A stretch of DNA of 28,089 bases, from positions 1-28,089 of the IMG/VR virus record IMGVR_UViG_3300047440_000443; one strand, written 5' to 3'. Numbering within the stretch: position 1 is the stretch's first letter; each line of letters starts with the position of its first letter. Below, in pieces: positions 1 through 20,762 of this stretch. The notes beneath the pieces are model-generated. The model was not told where the DNA came from, ran no database searches, and worked only from the letters and a program-made list of their open reading frames with translations. The position numbers and the translations under genes were made by a program. Source of the DNA: a virus.

Positions 1-926
1 TCGTAGGCCAGGCGGCCCTCGAGGCGGCGGAACTCGGTCACCAGGTGATCGACATGGGCACGGACGCGCACCTGTGGCGGCAGCCGCTGCAGGGACGCGG
101 GCGGTGTGACGAGCTGCGCGAGCGCAGTCGGGTCGGCCGAGATGTACTTGAGAAACGCGACGGCGTGCGGGCTGTCGTAGACGAGCTCGCCGATGATGTG
201 TACGGGCCCCGGCGTCTGCCCGGTGCGGCGCGCGTGGTCGAGGCCGCCCAGGTTCTTGGCCTCGTCGGAGAGCCCGGTGGCGAACGCGGGATCGTCGGTG
301 GCCGCCGTGGTCAGCCGTTCCCGAAACGCCTGGTCGCGGGCGACGAGCGCCTCGTGCCGCTGCTGCTCCGCCGCGCGCTGGCCCTGGACGGCGGCCTGTT
401 CCGCCTGCAGTTGGTCCTGCAGGAACAACGTTTGCGCGGCGTTGTATTCGGGGTAGGTGTCGAAGTCGTCGATCTTCGGCGCATCCGGCCGGGCCAGGTA
501 GCGCGCGGCGCGCTGTTTCTGGGTTTCCGGCGCGGGCTGGCCGTTCGGCGGCTGGCCGTTCGGCGGTGACTGACCGTTCGGCGGTTGGCTCGCGTCCGGC
601 CGCGCGGTGCGGCTTTCGAGCTCGCGCAGGCGTTGCTCCTGCTGCGCGATCCGCCGTTCGTAGTCGTTGATCGCCTGCTGGCGCTTCGAGACCGCGCGCT
701 CGCTGGTCTCGCCGTCGGGACTCGCTGCCGGCTGCGTGGGTGCAGCGGGCCGCGTGACTTCGGGGACCGACTGACCTTGCCGTTTGGCGACGTGCGCTCG
801 ATCGAACGCGCCGAAATCGCCGACGTCGGCCGCCGCGCGCTCTGCGCTGACAGTCGCCGGGGCGGACGGGGCATCGGTCGAGGCCGGCGGCTGCGCGGAT
901 GCAACGCCGGGGACGTCGTCTGGCAT
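1..926 (-). CDS. putative head scaffolding protein (C-terminus outside window)
   Basis: An open frame of 308 codons starts at ATG 926 and runs off the left edge. The protein begins MPDDVPGVAS and has a disordered Pro/Ala/Ser-rich first 75 residues. A Gln/Glu/Arg-rich probable coiled coil follows at about 78-108, then tandem PNGQ repeats at about 115-131, another helical Gln/Ala stretch at 160-200 and a more ordered C-terminal part. It lies two genes downstream of the portal, where P22- and HK97-type phages commonly encode a scaffold, and its low-complexity helical make-up fits. No catalytic motif is visible. The assignment rests on position and composition, not on a recognised family signature. 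The start has no good Shine-Dalgarno; a hairpin leader lies directly upstream. Confidence 0.6.
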   Translation of the reverse strand, partial: MPDDVPGVASAQPPASTDAPSAPATVSAERAAADVGDFGAFDRAHVAKRQGQSVPEVTRPAAPTQPAASPDGETSERAVSKRQQAINDYERRIAQQEQRLRELESRTARPDASQPPNGQSPPNGQPPNGQPAPETQKQRAARYLARPDAPKIDDFDTYPEYNAAQTLFLQDQLQAEQAAVQGQRAAEQQRHEALVARDQAFRERLTTAATDDPAFATGLSDEAKNLGGLDHARRTGQTPGPVHIIGELVYDSPHAVAFLKYISADPTALAQLVTPPASLQRLPPQVRVRAHVDHLVTEFRRLEGRLAY

Positions 927-935
927 CAGGTGCTT

Positions 936-980
936 GCCAGTCTGCGAAGACGCCCCGGCGGGGCGCAACCATTATTTCGG
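936..980 (-). promoter_or_regulatory. structured leader element, copy 1 (two hairpins)
   Basis: Read on the minus strand, the 71-nt gap between the gene ending at 998 and the ATG at 926 holds a GC hairpin (951-965, stem CGCCCC/GGGGCG, loop of 3). A second small hairpin follows (940-951, GTCT/AGAC). The same arrangement with the same flanking bases (AATAATGGTTGCG before, AGACTGGC after) recurs at 4523-4566. It probably acts in the mRNA leader. Confidence 0.55.
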
Positions 981-997
981 CAGGCGGGGTGCGGGCG

Positions 998-1333
998 CTA
1001 GGCGTCGGCGGTGTCGAGCACCATCCGCACGGCCGCGTCCTTCGCCTCGAGGAGTTTGCGCAGCGCCACCGTGCGCTCGGGATTCATCGGGTAGGTTGCG
1101 ACTAAGTGCTCGGCCAGCTCGCAAAACGGCTTGCTCGCCTCCTGGAGCTTCGGCGGCAGGTGATCGTAGACGAAGAACTGCAGAATCCGGTCGTGTGGCA
1201 TCTCCGCTCCCTTCATAGTCCACAGCACGCGCGCCAGCGCCTCGTCATCAGCGCCCGTCCACGGTCGCACGTCAAACTCCCGCACGAACCGGATGGCAAT
1301 CCCGGTCTGCGGATCCCTCAGGATCTCGCTCAC
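998..1333 (-). CDS. hypothetical protein following the portal
   Basis: 111 residues starting at GTG 1333, whose first bases overlap the portal stop (GTGA), so translation is probably coupled to the portal. The protein is soluble and mixed alpha/beta. The N-terminal part (MSEILRDPQTGIAIRFVREF) looks like beta strands and the C-terminal half is helical. No motif or family was recognised. Position between portal and scaffold-like gene suggests a morphogenesis accessory role; this is inference only. Confidence 0.75.
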   Translation of the reverse strand: MSEILRDPQTGIAIRFVREFDVRPWTGADDEALARVLWTMKGAEMPHDRILQFFVYDHLPPKLQEASKPFCELAEHLVATYPMNPERTVALRKLLEAKDAAVRMVLDTADA

Positions 1334-3816
1334 GGCGTGAACGCCTCCGGCGCCCCCCCGTTCGGCACCAGCGGGGCCTGTAGCGGCTGGCTCGCCTCGG
1401 CCTGTGCGGCTTCCCGTCCAGCCTGCCGCACCGCGTGCCGCGCCTCCGCGGCCCCCAGCGCCGCTTCGTGCGCGTGCCCCTGCGCCGCCATCCGCACTTC
1501 ATGCGCCGCCGCGACGGCATCCGCCGCGAGCTCGTGCTGCTGCGTCCCGACGCGCGCCCGTTCCTCGGCAAACAACCGCATCGCGTTCTGGAGCGTCTCG
1601 TACTTCGCACTGAGCGCGGCAACGGCCAGCTTCGTCTCGTTCGCTTCGTGCGCCCGCTGGCTGTCGCCCTGCTCCTGCAAGAGCGCAATCTGCTGCTTGC
1701 TCTGGAGCTCGCCGGCCTTACCCTGCGCCGCCTGCTGCGCCTGCTGGAGCGCCTGCGTGAGCTGCTGCACCTGCGCCTGGAGCGACGCGACCTCGGGCGA
1801 GACCGGTTCGCCCGTCGCGCTCTTGAACTCGGGCGGCTCGATGAGGTCCGCAATCGCATCGCCCATCGGCCCGAGGTTGCGCATGCGGATCGCCCGGGCA
1901 AAGACCGCACTCGCCACTTTCGGCCCGGCCAACTGCGCCACCATCCCGAGGTTCTGCACCAGCGTCTCGGTGAAGTCTTCCGCGGCGTCGCGCTCACTGT
2001 CGCTCGACGGCGCGCTCGAGACGGTCACGAGGTAGTCGCCCTGCGTGCTGACGCTGTCGGGGTCGCTCGGGTCGTTGATCCGCGTGGTGACGGCTTCGCC
2101 GGCCGCGCCCATCGTGCCCGTCTCGCCCGTGTAGTCGTAAATCTCCGCGGCGAGGTCTTCAAAGATGATCCCGACGCGGCGAATCATCGACTCGTAGCTG
2201 TGGACGAAGTGATACGTCCCGGCCGCCGCGGCACTGTCGATGCTCTTCAGGGCCGCGCCGCTTTTATCGTTGATCCGCTGCGCCTGCGTCGGCAGGAAGT
2301 TGCTGCCCATCGCCGCTTGAATCGCGCGGCGATAGCCTTCCTTCACGGCCTGGAGCCCTTGCAGATATTCGCCCTGGAGGTAGTCGAGCCGTTGCGGTGG
2401 GGGCAGCGGCGCCTCGCCGCTCGCGGGCGTGCGCATCAGGTAGAACAGGACCGACTTCGGCGTATGCGTCGAGTCTTCCCACTCCTGTTGGTGGCGCCCG
2501 AGCTGCCCTTCGACCGCCATGATCGGACTCTTCGGCACCATCGAGAGCACTTCGAGCTCCTGTGAACAGCAGTAGCAGTAGGCTTTCCACGGGTCGCGGC
2601 CGAAGCGGGTCATCGACAAGATCTTGCGTTTGACCTGGCCCCCCTCGGGCACGTACAGCACCTTGCCGTAGCAGGAGACGATCGGGATGTACTTCCCCGG
2701 CCAGTCTTGCTCGTGCAGGATGTCGAGGCCGTCGGTGAGGTACAGCCGAACGGTCGGGTCATCGACCGTCCGCAGTTCGCGGACGACGGTCCAGCCTTTC
2801 GGGCGCCAGACCGCCTCGAACTCGTCCTCAAACACGGCCTGTGGTCGTGGCGGCGGTGGCCCTTGCGGCGGTGGTGGCCCCTGCGGCGGCAGACCCGGCG
2901 GCATCCCGACTCCCATCGGCGGCAGACCCTGCGGCAAGCCGCCGCGCATCATCGGCACGCCGGGCGGCATCCCCGGGGGCGGCGCCATCCCGGGCGGCAA
3001 GCCGGGCAGTCCCGGCGGCGGAGACGGTCCCGCGGCCGGCCCGGTGATCGGCGGGAACCCCCGCAGCGCCGGCGGCCCGACGGGCGGCGGCGGCGCAATC
3101 AGCAATAGGGGCCGCGGCTTCGTCGTCAGCGCCCAGTACTCGGCGAGCAGCTCCTGGTCACCCGCAATCCAGCCCGTCGGCTTGCCCCCGGCCGCGCCGG
3201 TCCACTCCAGATCTTCGCTGCTCGAGGCCGCGTGCGTTTTCGTTTTCTTCGGCAGCAGGACGTCGCGCTTCTTCGCCTGTTCGGTGCGCGAGCCCCACTC
3301 GAAGACGAACGCGTACTGCATGTCGCTCGCGTCCGGCTCTTTGGCATCGAAGTCGAGCAGCACCTTGTCGGGGTCGGGGATCGCCTCGATCCAGATTTCC
3401 TGATTCGGCGACCGCGGCGACGAGTACTTCGTGGTCACCCGGCAGTAACCGTAGCTGCGCTGGATGGCGTTTTCGGCCGCGGTCAGGTAGGCCACTTCGG
3501 CGTGGCTGCGGTATTCAACCTCGCGGGCCTTGTCCTGATACCAGCGCGCCCCGTCGTCATTCGCCCCGTTGCCGACGGGCGCGAACTTCATCCCGCGGGG
3601 GTTCGCGCGCAGCGCGTTGATCACGTGGTTGAAGTACTGGCCCATTTCCTCGGGCGCAATCGTCGGGCGGTTCTTGCGGAGCTTGCGGTCGTCGTCGTCC
3701 CACGGGTCGCCGCCGACAAAGCGCATGTCTTTCTCGGCCTGGTCGCGGATCTCCTGCCAGTTCGCCTCCGAGTAGGCTTTGCGCTCGAGCAGTTCTTGGA
3801 CGAGGGCGTCGGGCAT
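1330..3816 (-). CDS. P22-like portal protein
   Basis: 828 residues, ATG at 3816 overlapping the preceding stop (ATGA). The N-terminal region (about 15-175) matches the P22-type portal pattern: a helical start, the segment RPTIAPEEMGQYFNHVINAL (50-69), then AEVAYLTAAENAIQRSYGYC. Portals form the dodecameric ring at one head vertex through which TerL pumps DNA. Residues about 235-326 are an unusual insertion made mostly of Pro and Gly with repeated MPPG/GLPP motifs. The portal fold resumes at about 328 (VFEDEFEAVWRPKGWTVVRE). The C-terminus (about 655-810) is Gln/Ala-rich and probably a coiled-coil barrel, as in P22 gp1. The P22 portal itself is about 725 residues; the insertion and long tail account for the extra length. 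Confidence 0.9.
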   Translation of the reverse strand: MPDALVQELLERKAYSEANWQEIRDQAEKDMRFVGGDPWDDDDRKLRKNRPTIAPEEMGQYFNHVINALRANPRGMKFAPVGNGANDDGARWYQDKAREVEYRSHAEVAYLTAAENAIQRSYGYCRVTTKYSSPRSPNQEIWIEAIPDPDKVLLDFDAKEPDASDMQYAFVFEWGSRTEQAKKRDVLLPKKTKTHAASSSEDLEWTGAAGGKPTGWIAGDQELLAEYWALTTKPRPLLLIAPPPPVGPPALRGFPPITGPAAGPSPPPGLPGLPPGMAPPPGMPPGVPMMRGGLPQGLPPMGVGMPPGLPPQGPPPPQGPPPPRPQAVFEDEFEAVWRPKGWTVVRELRTVDDPTVRLYLTDGLDILHEQDWPGKYIPIVSCYGKVLYVPEGGQVKRKILSMTRFGRDPWKAYCYCCSQELEVLSMVPKSPIMAVEGQLGRHQQEWEDSTHTPKSVLFYLMRTPASGEAPLPPPQRLDYLQGEYLQGLQAVKEGYRRAIQAAMGSNFLPTQAQRINDKSGAALKSIDSAAAAGTYHFVHSYESMIRRVGIIFEDLAAEIYDYTGETGTMGAAGEAVTTRINDPSDPDSVSTQGDYLVTVSSAPSSDSERDAAEDFTETLVQNLGMVAQLAGPKVASAVFARAIRMRNLGPMGDAIADLIEPPEFKSATGEPVSPEVASLQAQVQQLTQALQQAQQAAQGKAGELQSKQQIALLQEQGDSQRAHEANETKLAVAALSAKYETLQNAMRLFAEERARVGTQQHELAADAVAAAHEVRMAAQGHAHEAALGAAEARHAVRQAGREAAQAEASQPLQAPLVPNGGAPEAFTP

Positions 3817-4037
3817 CAGCGGGATCCCCAGACTAGCCAGCGCAGGCGCCGCCAGAGGGACATGTCGCGGTGCGCCACGAAGTCCCGGTAGACCTCTTTG
3901 ACGTGCGCGTCGTTGATGTTGCCGCCGCCTTCAGTGATCCGCAGGCGGGTATCGAGGCGTGCCCACTCCTTCGCACATTCGTCACGGAGCGTGGCGACCT
4001 GCTCGTCCAGCGGGACCGCGGACTCCGAAACGCCCAT
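3816..4037 (-). CDS. small hypothetical protein preceding the portal
   Basis: 73 residues from ATG 4037 (MGVSESAVPLDEQVATLRDE). The frame is open further upstream, but this ATG overlaps the stop of the preceding gene (ATGA) and the upstream stretch is Arg/Ala-rich out-of-frame composition, so this start is chosen. The middle is a helical, charged segment. The C-terminus is basic and aromatic (SLWRRLRWLVWGSR) and could touch membrane or DNA. The stop overlaps the portal start. No family recognised. Confidence 0.75.
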   Translation of the reverse strand: MGVSESAVPLDEQVATLRDECAKEWARLDTRLRITEGGGNINDAHVKEVYRDFVAHRDMSLWRRLRWLVWGSR

Positions 4038-4249
4038 CAGCGGCGCATCCGTGGCACGCGGGGGACCACGACCACCGCACGCGGCGCGACAGGCGGCGCG
4101 ACGCGCGCGAGCGCCTCGCCGACCGACGGCCCGCGCACCACGGCCACGGGCGGCAGCGGCGCCGCGGGGCGGCTGACCGGCCCCACCGGGATCGGCGCGC
4201 GCACCGCGACCGGCACGACACGACGGGGCGGGATCATGATTCGGGGCAT
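4037..4249 (-). CDS. small Pro/Val/Arg-rich hypothetical protein
   Basis: 70 residues of very low complexity (MPRIMIPPRRVVPVAVRAPI at the start), almost all Pro, Val, Ala and Arg, with no acidic stretch. It is called real because it fills the gap exactly: it starts 2 nt after the previous gene and its stop overlaps the next start (ATGA). GC-rich DNA can generate such frames by chance, so some doubt remains. No function can be assigned. Confidence 0.5.
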   Translation of the reverse strand: MPRIMIPPRRVVPVAVRAPIPVGPVSRPAAPLPPVAVVRGPSVGEALARVAPPVAPRAVVVVPRVPRMRR

Positions 4250-4251
4250 GG

Positions 4252-4515
4252 CTACACCGTCTGGCTAAAGACGCGATCCGTGCAGCCGCAGCGCAGCACC
4301 GCGCCGCCCGGCTCATCGAACTTGGCCGCCAGGTGAATGATCGGATCGGGGCACGTCAGCTGCCCGCACTTGAGCATCAGCCGGTCGCCGTGGACGTTGA
4401 AGTCCTTCGCGCAGCGGTCGAGGTGTTTGCGTTCGGCGAGCGTCCACACGACGCGCTGCCGCGTGGAAATCAGGTAGGTGTCGGCATCGAGGGAAGCGCC
4501 AGCGTGCAGGCCCAT
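4252..4515 (-). CDS. hypothetical Cys-rich protein (possible Zn binding)
   Basis: 87 residues from ATG 4515 (MGLHAGASLDADTYLISTRQ). Cysteines in RCAKDF, KCGQLTCPDP and LRCGCTD, with nearby histidines, could form a zinc site. The spacing is not a classical ribbon. The preceding 61 nt carry the second copy of the hairpin leader also found before the scaffold-like gene. No Shine-Dalgarno is visible. Confidence 0.65.
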   Translation of the reverse strand: MGLHAGASLDADTYLISTRQRVVWTLAERKHLDRCAKDFNVHGDRLMLKCGQLTCPDPIIHLAAKFDEPGGAVLRCGCTDRVFSQTV

Positions 4516-4522
4516 CGGTCGG

Positions 4523-4566
4523 GCCAGTCTGAAAGACCGCCTGCGGCGGGCGCAACCATTATTCGG
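4523..4566 (-). promoter_or_regulatory. structured leader element, copy 2 (two hairpins)
   Basis: On the minus strand this holds hairpin 1 (4537-4549, CCGCC/GGCGG, loop GCA) and hairpin 2 (4527-4537, GTCT/AGAC). AATAATGGTTGCG precedes them and TGGC follows. Stem sequence differs from copy 1 at 936-980 while pairing is kept. The downstream ATG (4515) lies 11 nt after hairpin 2, compared with 13 nt in copy 1. Confidence 0.55.
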
Positions 4567-4576
4567 GCGGGAGGCG

Positions 4577-4720
4577 TTAGAGCCATCGGCTCAACTGCCA
4601 CGCGAGGGTAAACCGGCTCGTCGTGTAGCTCCAGCATCCAAACGGGCCGCGCTCGAATCCGGCTGAGCATCTCCACGGACGCGTGAGCGTCAGGGTCTTC
4701 GCGCCGAGACGGATCCTCAT
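4577..4720 (-). CDS. small Trp/Arg-rich hypothetical protein
   Basis: 47 residues from ATG 4720 (MRIRLGAKTLTLTRPWRCSA), rich in Trp, Phe and Arg. It fits between the gene ending at 4737 and the next leader. A competing frame (4470-4733, TTG start) covers the same DNA but has shadow-like composition and overlaps the next gene by 46 nt. The assignment is by fit and composition; no family is known. A weak AAGGG lies 13 nt before the ATG. Confidence 0.45.
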   Translation of the reverse strand: MRIRLGAKTLTLTRPWRCSAGFERGPFGCWSYTTSRFTLAWQLSRWL

Positions 4721-4736
4721 AGTTAGACCGCAACCC

Positions 4737-5003
4737 TTATTCGGGAGCGGCGACCTGATGCGGCCCCGCATGCCCGGCTGCCAAGCTACACCGCGCCTCC
4801 GGTCCCCCCGCCACAACCGGCGTCCGCGCGCCGCACCGGGCCTGCTCATCGGAGAGACCGAAGAGTTCGGGCAGCAGCTCCCGCGCCGCCTCTTCATCGA
4901 TCGCATCCGCCAGTTGCCGCGCCGCCTTCGCAATCGCGTCGGCTTCACTCATGCCACGAGCGATATCGGCCATAACCGAGAAGTAGGTGGGGAACGTCGC
5001 CAT
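4737..5003 (-). CDS. hypothetical helical protein
   Basis: 88 residues from ATG 5003 (MATFPTYFSVMADIARGMSE). The ATG shares bases with the previous stop (TAATG), which fixes the start. Residues 10-50 form an Ala-rich acidic helix pair. The C-terminal part holds Cys and His (RCGARTP, ARCSLAAGHAGPHQ) that could bind a metal. Function unknown. Confidence 0.7.
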   Translation of the reverse strand: MATFPTYFSVMADIARGMSEADAIAKAARQLADAIDEEAARELLPELFGLSDEQARCGARTPVVAGGPEARCSLAAGHAGPHQVAAPE

Positions 5004-5233
5004 TATTCGAGCGGCTGTCGGGGATTCGGCATCGCAAACGGCCCCAACTCGAACGCCTCGACGGGAATCATGAATTCTTCGGTCTTGACGCGGTTGGCGT
5101 TCGCGACGATCGTCGCGGCCACCTCCGCCGTGAACCGGCCCGCCTCGGCGAGGGTCGGCGCGTAGCCGTGACGGCTCGCCTTCCACCACGCCTGATGTTC
5201 AATCGACCAGATGACGTAGCGCGGGGGCATCAT
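5003..5233 (-). CDS. small hypothetical protein
   Basis: 76 residues starting at ATG 5233 (MMPPRYVIWSIEHQAWWKAS). A second ATG follows at once; the first overlaps the upstream TGA. GAGG a few bases before supports initiation here. The sequence resembles short phage proteins that open with an RYVIWS-type beta strand and contain a central helix (EAGRFTAEVAATIVANAN). No function recognised. Confidence 0.75.
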   Translation of the reverse strand: MMPPRYVIWSIEHQAWWKASRHGYAPTLAEAGRFTAEVAATIVANANRVKTEEFMIPVEAFELGPFAMPNPRQPLE

Positions 5234-5580
5234 GAACCCTCGTCGGGATTCGGCCGCGTCCACGGTGTCTCTGGCTGGCGGCGATCGTACCGCTTGCCGT
5301 CGAGCAGAATGAAATCAGAAACCTCGGTCGCCTTCTGTTCCACAAGCGCGGCGAACAACTGCGCCTTCTGGTTGTAGAGCGCATAGACCACCGCGATTAA
5401 CGCCTGCTCGCGCGTCAGCTCGCCCCGATCGACCAACACCTCGGCATGTCGCATCGCGGGCTCCACGAGGCAGAGCGGGCGCAACGCATCCCAGGTCAGG
5501 CCCGGTTGATCGACGGGCAAATCGACGGGCGGAAAGAAGCGCCACTTCTTCTCGTCTTCGTCCCATGATTGTTCACTCAT
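5230..5580 (-). CDS. hypothetical protein at a divergent junction
   Basis: 116 residues from ATG 5580 (MSEQSWDEDEKKWRFFPPVD). Acidic N-terminus, helical middle (MRHAEVLVDRGELTREQALI) and charged C-terminus. Its start is only 18 nt from the start of the divergent antitoxin gene at 5599, so their promoters must overlap. It is the first gene of the minus-strand run leading to the portal. No family recognised. Confidence 0.75.
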   Translation of the reverse strand: MSEQSWDEDEKKWRFFPPVDLPVDQPGLTWDALRPLCLVEPAMRHAEVLVDRGELTREQALIAVVYALYNQKAQLFAALVEQKATEVSDFILLDGKRYDRRQPETPWTRPNPDEGS

Positions 5581-5598
5581 GTGCTACTCTAGTATCAC
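5581..5598. promoter_or_regulatory. interrupted palindrome between divergent starts
   Basis: The 18-nt gap reads GTGCTAC-TCTA-GTATCAC, an inverted repeat with one mismatch in 7-nt arms. It lies exactly between the ATG codons of the minus-strand gene at 5580 and the antitoxin at 5599. This is a plausible operator for the Phd-type antitoxin, which usually represses its own operon. Confidence 0.45.
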
Positions 5599-5868
5599 AT
5601 GCGGACTGAACTTGTCACCACCCTGAAACGCCGCGCCACCGAAGTCCTCGACCAACTCGCCGCCGATCGCGAGCCCGTGCTGATCACCCACCACGGCCTG
5701 CCGAGCGCGTATCTGGTGGACGTCGAGAGCTACGAGACGCTCCAGCGGCGGATGGCGATCCTGGAAGGCATCGCCCGCGGGGAGCGGGCCCTGGCCGAAG
5801 GACGGATCCTCTCCCACGCGGCCGTGGAACGACGGATGCAGAAGCGGCTGGCTCGTTGGCGGAAGTAG
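5599..5868 (+). CDS. Phd/YefM-family antitoxin
   Basis: 89 residues (MRTELVTTLKRRATEVLDQL). The N-terminal 60 residues show the Phd/YefM pattern: an amphipathic helix, the strand-turn PVLITHHGLPSAYLVDVESY, then a helix. The basic helical C-terminus (RRMQKRLARWRK) would wrap the toxin. In this family the N-terminal half dimerises and binds operator DNA, and the C-terminal half blocks the toxin. The stop overlaps the toxin gene by 13 nt. The pair lies antisense to its neighbours inside the late operon, as an inserted stability or defence cargo would. Confidence 0.85.
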   Translation: MRTELVTTLKRRATEVLDQLAADREPVLITHHGLPSAYLVDVESYETLQRRMAILEGIARGERALAEGRILSHAAVERRMQKRLARWRK

Positions 5869-6161
5869 TCTGGACGGAGCCGGCGGAGGCCGACCTCACC
5901 GCCATCGCCGACTACCTCGCGCTCGACAATCCCGACGCGGCCGCCGCTCTCGTGCAGCGCGTCCTCGCGCACATGCGGCAGTTGGCCCGCTTCCCCCGCA
6001 GTGGGTCCGTGCCGCCGGAGCTCCCCGGCGGCCGGTATCGGCAGATCGTCGAGCCGCCCTGCCGAGTCTTCTATCGAGTGGAACAGAAACAGCGGGTCAT
6101 CATCCTCCACGTCATGCGGAGCGAGCAGCGGCTCCGGCCGACCCTCCTACGGCTGCGCTAA
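5856..6161 (+). CDS. RelE/ParE-superfamily toxin
   Basis: 101 residues with a TTG start (LAEVVWTEPAEADLTAIADY), overlapping the antitoxin stop. The features are those of ParE/RelE: N-terminal strand VVWTEPAEADL, two helices (to about residue 45), the RFPRSG turn, and C-terminal strands YRQIVEPPCRVFYRVEQ and RVIILHVMRSEQR. ParE members poison gyrase and RelE members cut mRNA in the ribosome; the sequence alone does not decide which. It converges with the small membrane-protein gene ending at 6174. Confidence 0.85.
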   Translation: MAEVVWTEPAEADLTAIADYLALDNPDAAAALVQRVLAHMRQLARFPRSGSVPPELPGGRYRQIVEPPCRVFYRVEQKQRVIILHVMRSEQRLRPTLLRLR

Positions 6162-8280: not shown

Positions 8281-8477
8281 CGCTTCCCAGTTCGGTCGGA
8301 CAACGTCAGACGCGGATGGGCCTTCCGCCAATCCTTCCATTCACGCGCATCCATCACCGCGCCAATAACCTCGGTCCCTCGAGTAATGACTTGCCCGCCA
8401 CGGCGAGTTCCAGCCAATAGGATCAATTCTGTCCGTTCCGCATCCGTCAGCACACGCGCAAACCACTGCGTGATCAT
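8277..8477 (-). CDS. small hypothetical protein before TerL
   Basis: 66 residues from ATG 8477 (MITQWFARVLTDAERTELIL), coupled at both ends by ATGA overlaps. The N-terminal helix is followed by RRGGQVITRGTEVIGAVMDA, probably a short beta hairpin, and a basic C-terminus. Unlike its neighbours its codon use is less GC-biased. No family recognised. Confidence 0.75.
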   Translation of the reverse strand: MITQWFARVLTDAERTELILLAGTRRGGQVITRGTEVIGAVMDAREWKDWRKAHPRLTLSDRTGKR

Positions 8478-8797
8478 TTCGTCCCGTCCCACACCACGAC
8501 ATAGGTCCGCCCGCGAATCACCCGCTCCTGTCGCGGCGGCACGGCGGCGGCCTCGCGCGCCGCACACGCCGCCGCCACCTCGTCGGCCAGCGCCTGCCAG
8601 CACGCGGAACACAGACTCTCGCGGGTGTCCGCCGCCGCCCCGCAGCGCCGGCAGTGCCGCGTCGTCGGCGTCTGCGGCACGTAGCTGCCGAGCACCCGAT
8701 CGCACTGGCGGCAGAGCCATAGCGGCGACTGGCCCCACCGCACCCCGCAGTGCCGGCAGCGCGTGCGATTCTGCGACCAGCGGGGGGCCTCGGGCAT
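8474..8797 (-). CDS. zinc-ribbon protein with four CxxC knuckles
   Basis: 107 residues from ATG 8797, preceded by an AGGA about 7 nt away. Four CxxC pairs at C14/C17, C29/C32, C49/C52 and C63/C66 suggest two stacked zinc ribbons. A helix (70-85) and a basic C-terminus (ERVIRGRTYVVVWDGTK) follow. Zn-ribbon proteins of this size bind DNA, RNA or protein. Placement between the terminase subunits suggests a packaging accessory or HNH-like remnant, but no HNH residues are seen. Confidence 0.75.
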   Translation of the reverse strand: MPEAPRWSQNRTRCRHCGVRWGQSPLWLCRQCDRVLGSYVPQTPTTRHCRRCGAAADTRESLCSACWQALADEVAAACAAREAAAVPPRQERVIRGRTYVVVWDGTK

Positions 8798-14591: not shown

Positions 14592-14706
14592 CCCGAACTC
14601 TTTTTCACCACCGTTTCGCCGACGGTGCGGGGGGCGCGGGGCGCAGCCCTGAGCGACCGCCGCGACCGTCTTCGTTGATCCTGATTTGAGGCACCGGCGT
14701 GCGGGC

Positions 14707-20746: not shown

Positions 20747-20762
20747 TATCCGGAATCGGATA
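20747..20762. promoter_or_regulatory. operator-like palindrome O4 at the repressor start
   Basis: TATCCG-GAAT-CGGATA, perfect 6-nt arms, 12 bp before the ATG at 20774. TACTAT just downstream (20761-20766) could be a -10 box producing a leaderless mRNA, as for lambda cI. Confidence 0.6.

Follow-up and report, generated by a model that had tools for sequence, protein, structure and literature searches.

The window analysed here is the whole 28,089-nucleotide stretch of the IMG/VR virus record IMGVR_UViG_3300047440_000443. It carries two 41-bp elements of the form AATAATGGTTGCGC-N18-CAGACTGGC, both on the minus strand and each directly upstream of a head gene (Table 1). Copy 1 precedes a scaffold-like gene, and copy 2 precedes g87, which opens the portal operon. 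The gene order of this operon is g87, g166, the P22-type portal and g111, with overlapping ends, and copy 1 lies about 20 nt past the g111 stop codon. The g87 gene adjoins the portal gene in distant relatives too. Pfam and PHROG gave no match for g87, and comparison of its predicted structure with solved structures gave no match with E <= 0.001.

Table 1. Coordinates of the elements and genes discussed in the text.
Feature	Position	Strand	Remarks
Scaffold-like gene	1-926	minus	Continues beyond the window; start codon at 926-924 without an SD; PHROG 8865, E 9e-5
Element copy 1 (scaffold operon)	936-976	minus	Sequence, 18-member alignment
Copy 1, 3' block CAGACTGGC	936-944	minus	
Copy 1, -10-like hexamer CAGACT	939-944	minus	Putative function
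Copy 1, variable spacer	945-962	minus	
Copy 1, 5' block AATAATGGTTGCGC	963-976	minus	
Copy 1, -35-like hexamer TTGCGC	963-968	minus	Putative, from conservation and spacing
P22-type portal gene	1330-3816	minus	Part of the operon behind copy 2
g87, conserved Cys-rich 87-aa protein	4252-4515	minus	Opens the portal operon; start codon without an SD
Element copy 2 (g87-portal operon)	4523-4563	minus	Sequence, 18-member alignment
Copy 2, 3' block CAGACTGGC	4523-4531	minus	
Copy 2, -10-like hexamer CAGACT	4526-4531	minus	Putative function
Copy 2, variable spacer	4532-4549	minus	
Copy 2, 5' block AATAATGGTTGCGC, as in copy 1	4550-4563	minus	
Copy 2, -35-like hexamer TTGCGC	4550-4555	minus	Putative, from conservation and spacing
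Incomplete third copy, consisting of the 5' block AATAAGGGTTGCGG	4728-4741	minus	Ahead of a 47-aa ORF (4577-4720)
Zinc-ribbon protein gene	8474-8797	minus	DZR_2 E 7.5e-4, below cut-off; between small and large terminase subunit genes

The first-pass annotation had described this region as a duplicated two-hairpin leader before two late genes. The duplication is real and so is its placement. AATAATGGTTGCG has two exact matches in the window (964-976 and 4551-4563), and a generalised two-block pattern matches twice where 100 shuffles gave an expectation of 0.00. The start codons of both genes lack a Shine-Dalgarno (SD) sequence, as had been stated, with the ATG 13 nt (copy 1) and 11 nt (copy 2) after AGAC. 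Measured from the -10-like hexamer, which lies 18 nt from the -35-like hexamer in copy 1, the start codon is 12 nt away in copy 1 and 10 nt away in copy 2. A possible third, decayed copy had also been pointed out. Its 5' half is indeed present and is identical to the 5' block of two related contigs (L026 and L029), but no 3' block follows it. The region around this half copy, from the toxin-antitoxin pair to copy 2 (4577-5600), is a swap region with unrelated genes in close relatives.

Searches of IMG/VR by pattern, by portal and by g87 profile yielded about 25 contigs of one phage group, all from uncultured (soil) phages, with 18 distinct elements upstream of g87 or the scaffold gene. The elements of L062 and L063 were located by reading the sequence. 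Portal relatives among named phages were all below 60% identity (best 29%), and no cultured member of the group was found. The 18 homologues share the motif AATAA[T/G]NNTTG[C/T]G[C/G], N17-18, [C/G]A[C/G]ACTGG, and the invariant columns (n=14) are A1 A2 T3 A4 A5, T9 G11 G13 and A34 A36 C37 T38 G39 G40. The GC-rich spacer is the least conserved part of the element in sequence, yet its length is fixed at 18 nt, except in one lineage with 17 nt in both copies (G001; L033/L034).

The motif is highly specific in its placement. A two-block matrix built from the first 15 elements holds 38.3 bits, and real sites score 36-45, whereas no other position exceeded 11 on either strand of the scanned sequences or of their reversed versions. 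All 22 IMG/VR contigs matching the strict pattern have the motif before g87 or the scaffold gene. Genomes that span both loci contain it exactly twice, once ahead of the small gene that opens the portal operon and once ahead of the scaffold gene, as seen in G001 (38.4-kb contig, two sites) and G014 (36.4-kb contig, one site per locus). The strict pattern gave 3 unrelated matches in GTDB genomes, against a chance expectation of about 4 in 257 Gb by our own estimate with equal base frequencies, and no host was found by this route. A first, broader pattern also matched 8 contigs that are rich in AT and come from a single, unrelated type of phage; these have no CACACTGG block and were set aside as chance matches.

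Close relatives show only 20-31% identity upstream of the element versus 94-97% downstream, with the 5' block shared exactly. Because homology breaks at its upstream edge, the element belongs to the downstream operon or gene. Both flanks are shared between L022 and L014, and the spacer and -10-like block differ. In the more distant relatives L027 and L035 the element is absent upstream of the scaffold gene, and the gap between that gene and the portal operon holds a GC hairpin with a run of T behind it, resembling a terminator.

The two blocks stand at fixed spacing upstream of late genes and are oriented with the gene, as in late promoters. Their distance of 18 bp, bridged by a spacer of free sequence, is the geometry of a promoter. 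We consider each element to be, with a probability of about three in four, a phage-specific late promoter used by the host RNA polymerase together with a phage-encoded activator or other specificity factor. Host RNA polymerase would contact the -35-like TTGCGC and the weak -10-like CA[C/G]ACT 18 bp apart, and the invariant AATAAT just upstream may be an activator site or an UP-like contact. The predicted transcription start is about 6-7 nt past the -10-like block, and the products would be nearly leaderless mRNAs of the scaffold and g87-portal operons with a 5' UTR of 3-7 nt. In this way the element would probably turn on virus assembly genes late in infection. TTGCGC retains the TTG of a -35 element and CACACT retains A2, A4 and T6 of a -10 element. 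Together they are a poor sigma-70 match, and a consensus scan (TTGACA-16/18-TATAAT, at least 9 of 12) reported only a site at 5618-5591 and neither element, so that neither is a canonical sigma-70 promoter.

The positions of the start codons are consistent with the promoter reading. In 15 elements the start codon lies 9-13 nt after the -10-like block and has no convincing SD, and in the three in which it lies 27-34 nt away, AAAGG or CAGG precedes the ATG. This relation fits a start codon shifted against a fixed transcription start. Other SD-less starts lie 6-10 nt after [G/T]ATACT (5580, 20774 and 23203 in the window; 17846 and 14606 in L054; 6808 in L025). Over six sequences, [G/T]ATACT stood 5-12 nt before the start in 7 of 31 cases versus 8% for permuted hexamers, which lends the promoter reading modest support. 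On the other side, a predicted leader of 3-7 nt is not strictly leaderless, and strong dyads occur in some elements, with a p of 0.01 when the folds of 15 elements are combined.

Two further features of the window concern other SD-less starts. A sigma-70-like promoter, GTGACA-16-GATACT, at 5591-5618 on the minus strand lies 10 nt before the start at 5580 and covers the beginning of a Phd/ParE toxin-antitoxin pair in divergent orientation (5599-6161, plus strand), an arrangement also present in G001. A palindrome, TATCCGNNNNCGGATA, occurs near [G/T]ATACT and SD-less starts of HTH genes, at 20747-20762 in the window, where it is perfect, and at 14617-14632 and 15282-15297 in L054. It is possibly a repressor operator; looser matches to it were not clearly above chance.

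A protein-binding site of another kind would yield much of the same conservation. The element could be a DNA site that is itself no promoter, either an operator or activator site for another promoter or a recombination site for cassettes. The very strict conservation, which includes the TGG after the -10-like block, is compatible with such a site, as are the mosaic junctions at the upstream edge of the element and inside the spacer and the half copy heading the cassette of the 47-aa ORF. However, the fixed orientation, the closeness to start codons and the relation between SD and distance are not expected of a recombination site, and no other promoter match was found at the places of the elements. 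We consider a DNA site of this type unlikely.

A structured RNA leader that controls translation or processing of both downstream genes, as the first-pass annotation proposed, now appears very improbable. Both window copies are able to fold into a GC hairpin plus a GTCT/AGAC hairpin. The earlier observation of stems that pair alike despite different sequences holds only loosely, as the registers differ between the copies, with stem columns 13-17/21-25 in copy 1 and 16-19/23-26 in copy 2 of an ungapped alignment. The window copies fold no better than with their own spacers shuffled (fractions 0.34 and 0.48), and RNAalifold found zero consensus pairs on 15 or 18 homologues. The eight proposed pairs in the copy 2 register were retained in 43.8% of cells versus 44.2% in shuffles. 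In the copy 1 register (15 sequences) retention was 56.3% versus 52.7%, with 45 of 500 shuffles as good. Most homologues lack the GTCT/AGAC hairpin, the start codon lies at a variable distance, and the spacer is the least conserved part while its length is constant. A covariance model with the proposed pairs does recover the homologues and gives more bits than a pairless model; the two were scored in different modes and their bits are not comparable, so the pair counts decide. L036 and L047, with their strong dyad GTGTGCC-N5-GGCACAC, account for most of the combined fold signal, and there is a similar dyad in L062 and the L063 scaffold copy; this could be a lineage-specific operator. An Rfam search of 700-5300 found no family at the elements and one sub-threshold match elsewhere. 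The homologues thus show no conserved, covarying pairs of the kind that mark a structured cis-regulatory RNA. A leader peptide, suggested by the ATGGTTGCGCC with which both window copies begin, is almost certainly wrong because half of the elements (9 of 18) have no ATG there, and conservation is lowest in the would-be coding part.

Among three two-copy genomes, comparison of the 5' blocks within each genome gives a single difference overall (mean of 6.4 under the null; 2 of 504 assignments did equally well), and the spacers within a genome are no more similar than random. G014 has AATAATACTTGTGC twice, G001 has AATAATTG twice and the window has AATAATGG twice. L026 and L029 both have AATAAGGGTTGCGG; they come from the same metagenome and may belong to one genome. 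Matching 5' blocks with non-matching spacers indirectly suggest a trans factor that co-evolves with its site, and we regard selection by a common reader as more probable than gene conversion limited to a 14-bp tract. Sigma70_r2 and Sigma70_r4_2 gave no match over the cut-off in G000, G001, G002 and G014, genomes which may be incomplete.

The zinc-ribbon protein encoded between the terminase genes is a candidate for this factor, as a lead only. Its gene is present in all 11 motif-bearing sequences that cover the terminase interval. It is missing from the motif-less L025/L067, in which the two terminase matches stand about 220 nt apart; this close relative (large terminase 84% identical) is the sole negative case, and the L025 contig ends before the scaffold gene. 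The second Cys4 cluster of the protein is lost in G001 and L028, and its predicted structure (pTM 0.34) was too weak for a fold search. A possible but doubtful fuller account is that an undescribed zinc-ribbon activator reads AATAAT-NN-TTGYG, co-evolves with it and makes the nearly leaderless mRNAs of the portal and scaffold operons.

Late activators with zinc fingers are known as Ogr/Delta in P2/P4. If a small phage protein that binds zinc through Cys4 were the late activator here, it would resemble them by analogy only, and unlike in P2/P4, a search with Ogr_Delta (PF04606) gave no match in four genomes of our group. Phage 7-11, which is phiEco32-like, has late promoters of the form GTAAtg-16-aCTA and the phage sigma SaPh711_gp47 (PMC8948821). 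As in 7-11, where host RNA polymerase works with a phage factor (PMC8948821), a bipartite phage-specific consensus lies upstream of late genes here. The sequences and spacing are different, however, with eight promoters in 7-11 and two here, and no sigma was found in our genomes. Mu (C protein, PMC4461284) and P1 (Lpa, PMC8198154) have a few late promoters that need a phage activator, and the activator site of Mu is just upstream of the -35 (PMC4461284). The motif here is unrelated in sequence to those of Mu and P1 as far as compared, and the activator is a candidate only, a zinc-ribbon protein and not a C or Lpa protein.

Cluster K mycobacteriophages have many copies of the SAS, GGGATAGGAGCCC, and the ESAS with 17-bp inverted repeats (PMC3203893). 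Like these, our elements are short conserved sequences directly before start codons in one phage group, with a consensus that varies by subgroup (PMC3203893), but there are two bipartite copies per genome, which does not agree with the description of SAS/ESAS (PMC3203893). In mycobacterial leaderless promoters, transcripts begin exactly at ATG or GTG (PMC4633059). They are similar in that the promoter immediately precedes a start codon that has no SD (PMC4633059), whereas the leader here is predicted to be 3-7 nt. The element belongs to none of the families tested, since it has no phage sigma, Ogr, canonical sigma-70 or SAS/ESAS match. Bipartite late promoters are a known kind, and this sequence family appears undescribed in a non-exhaustive search of the literature.

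The elements provide a precise, searchable late-promoter motif for a phage group with P22-type portals. They also give a caution, as GC-rich promoter spacers mimic hairpins when just two copies are compared. With two copies in one genome, the co-evolution of factor and DNA can be tested within that genome, and the elements suggest that structural genes of these phages use starts that lack an SD and are nearly leaderless.
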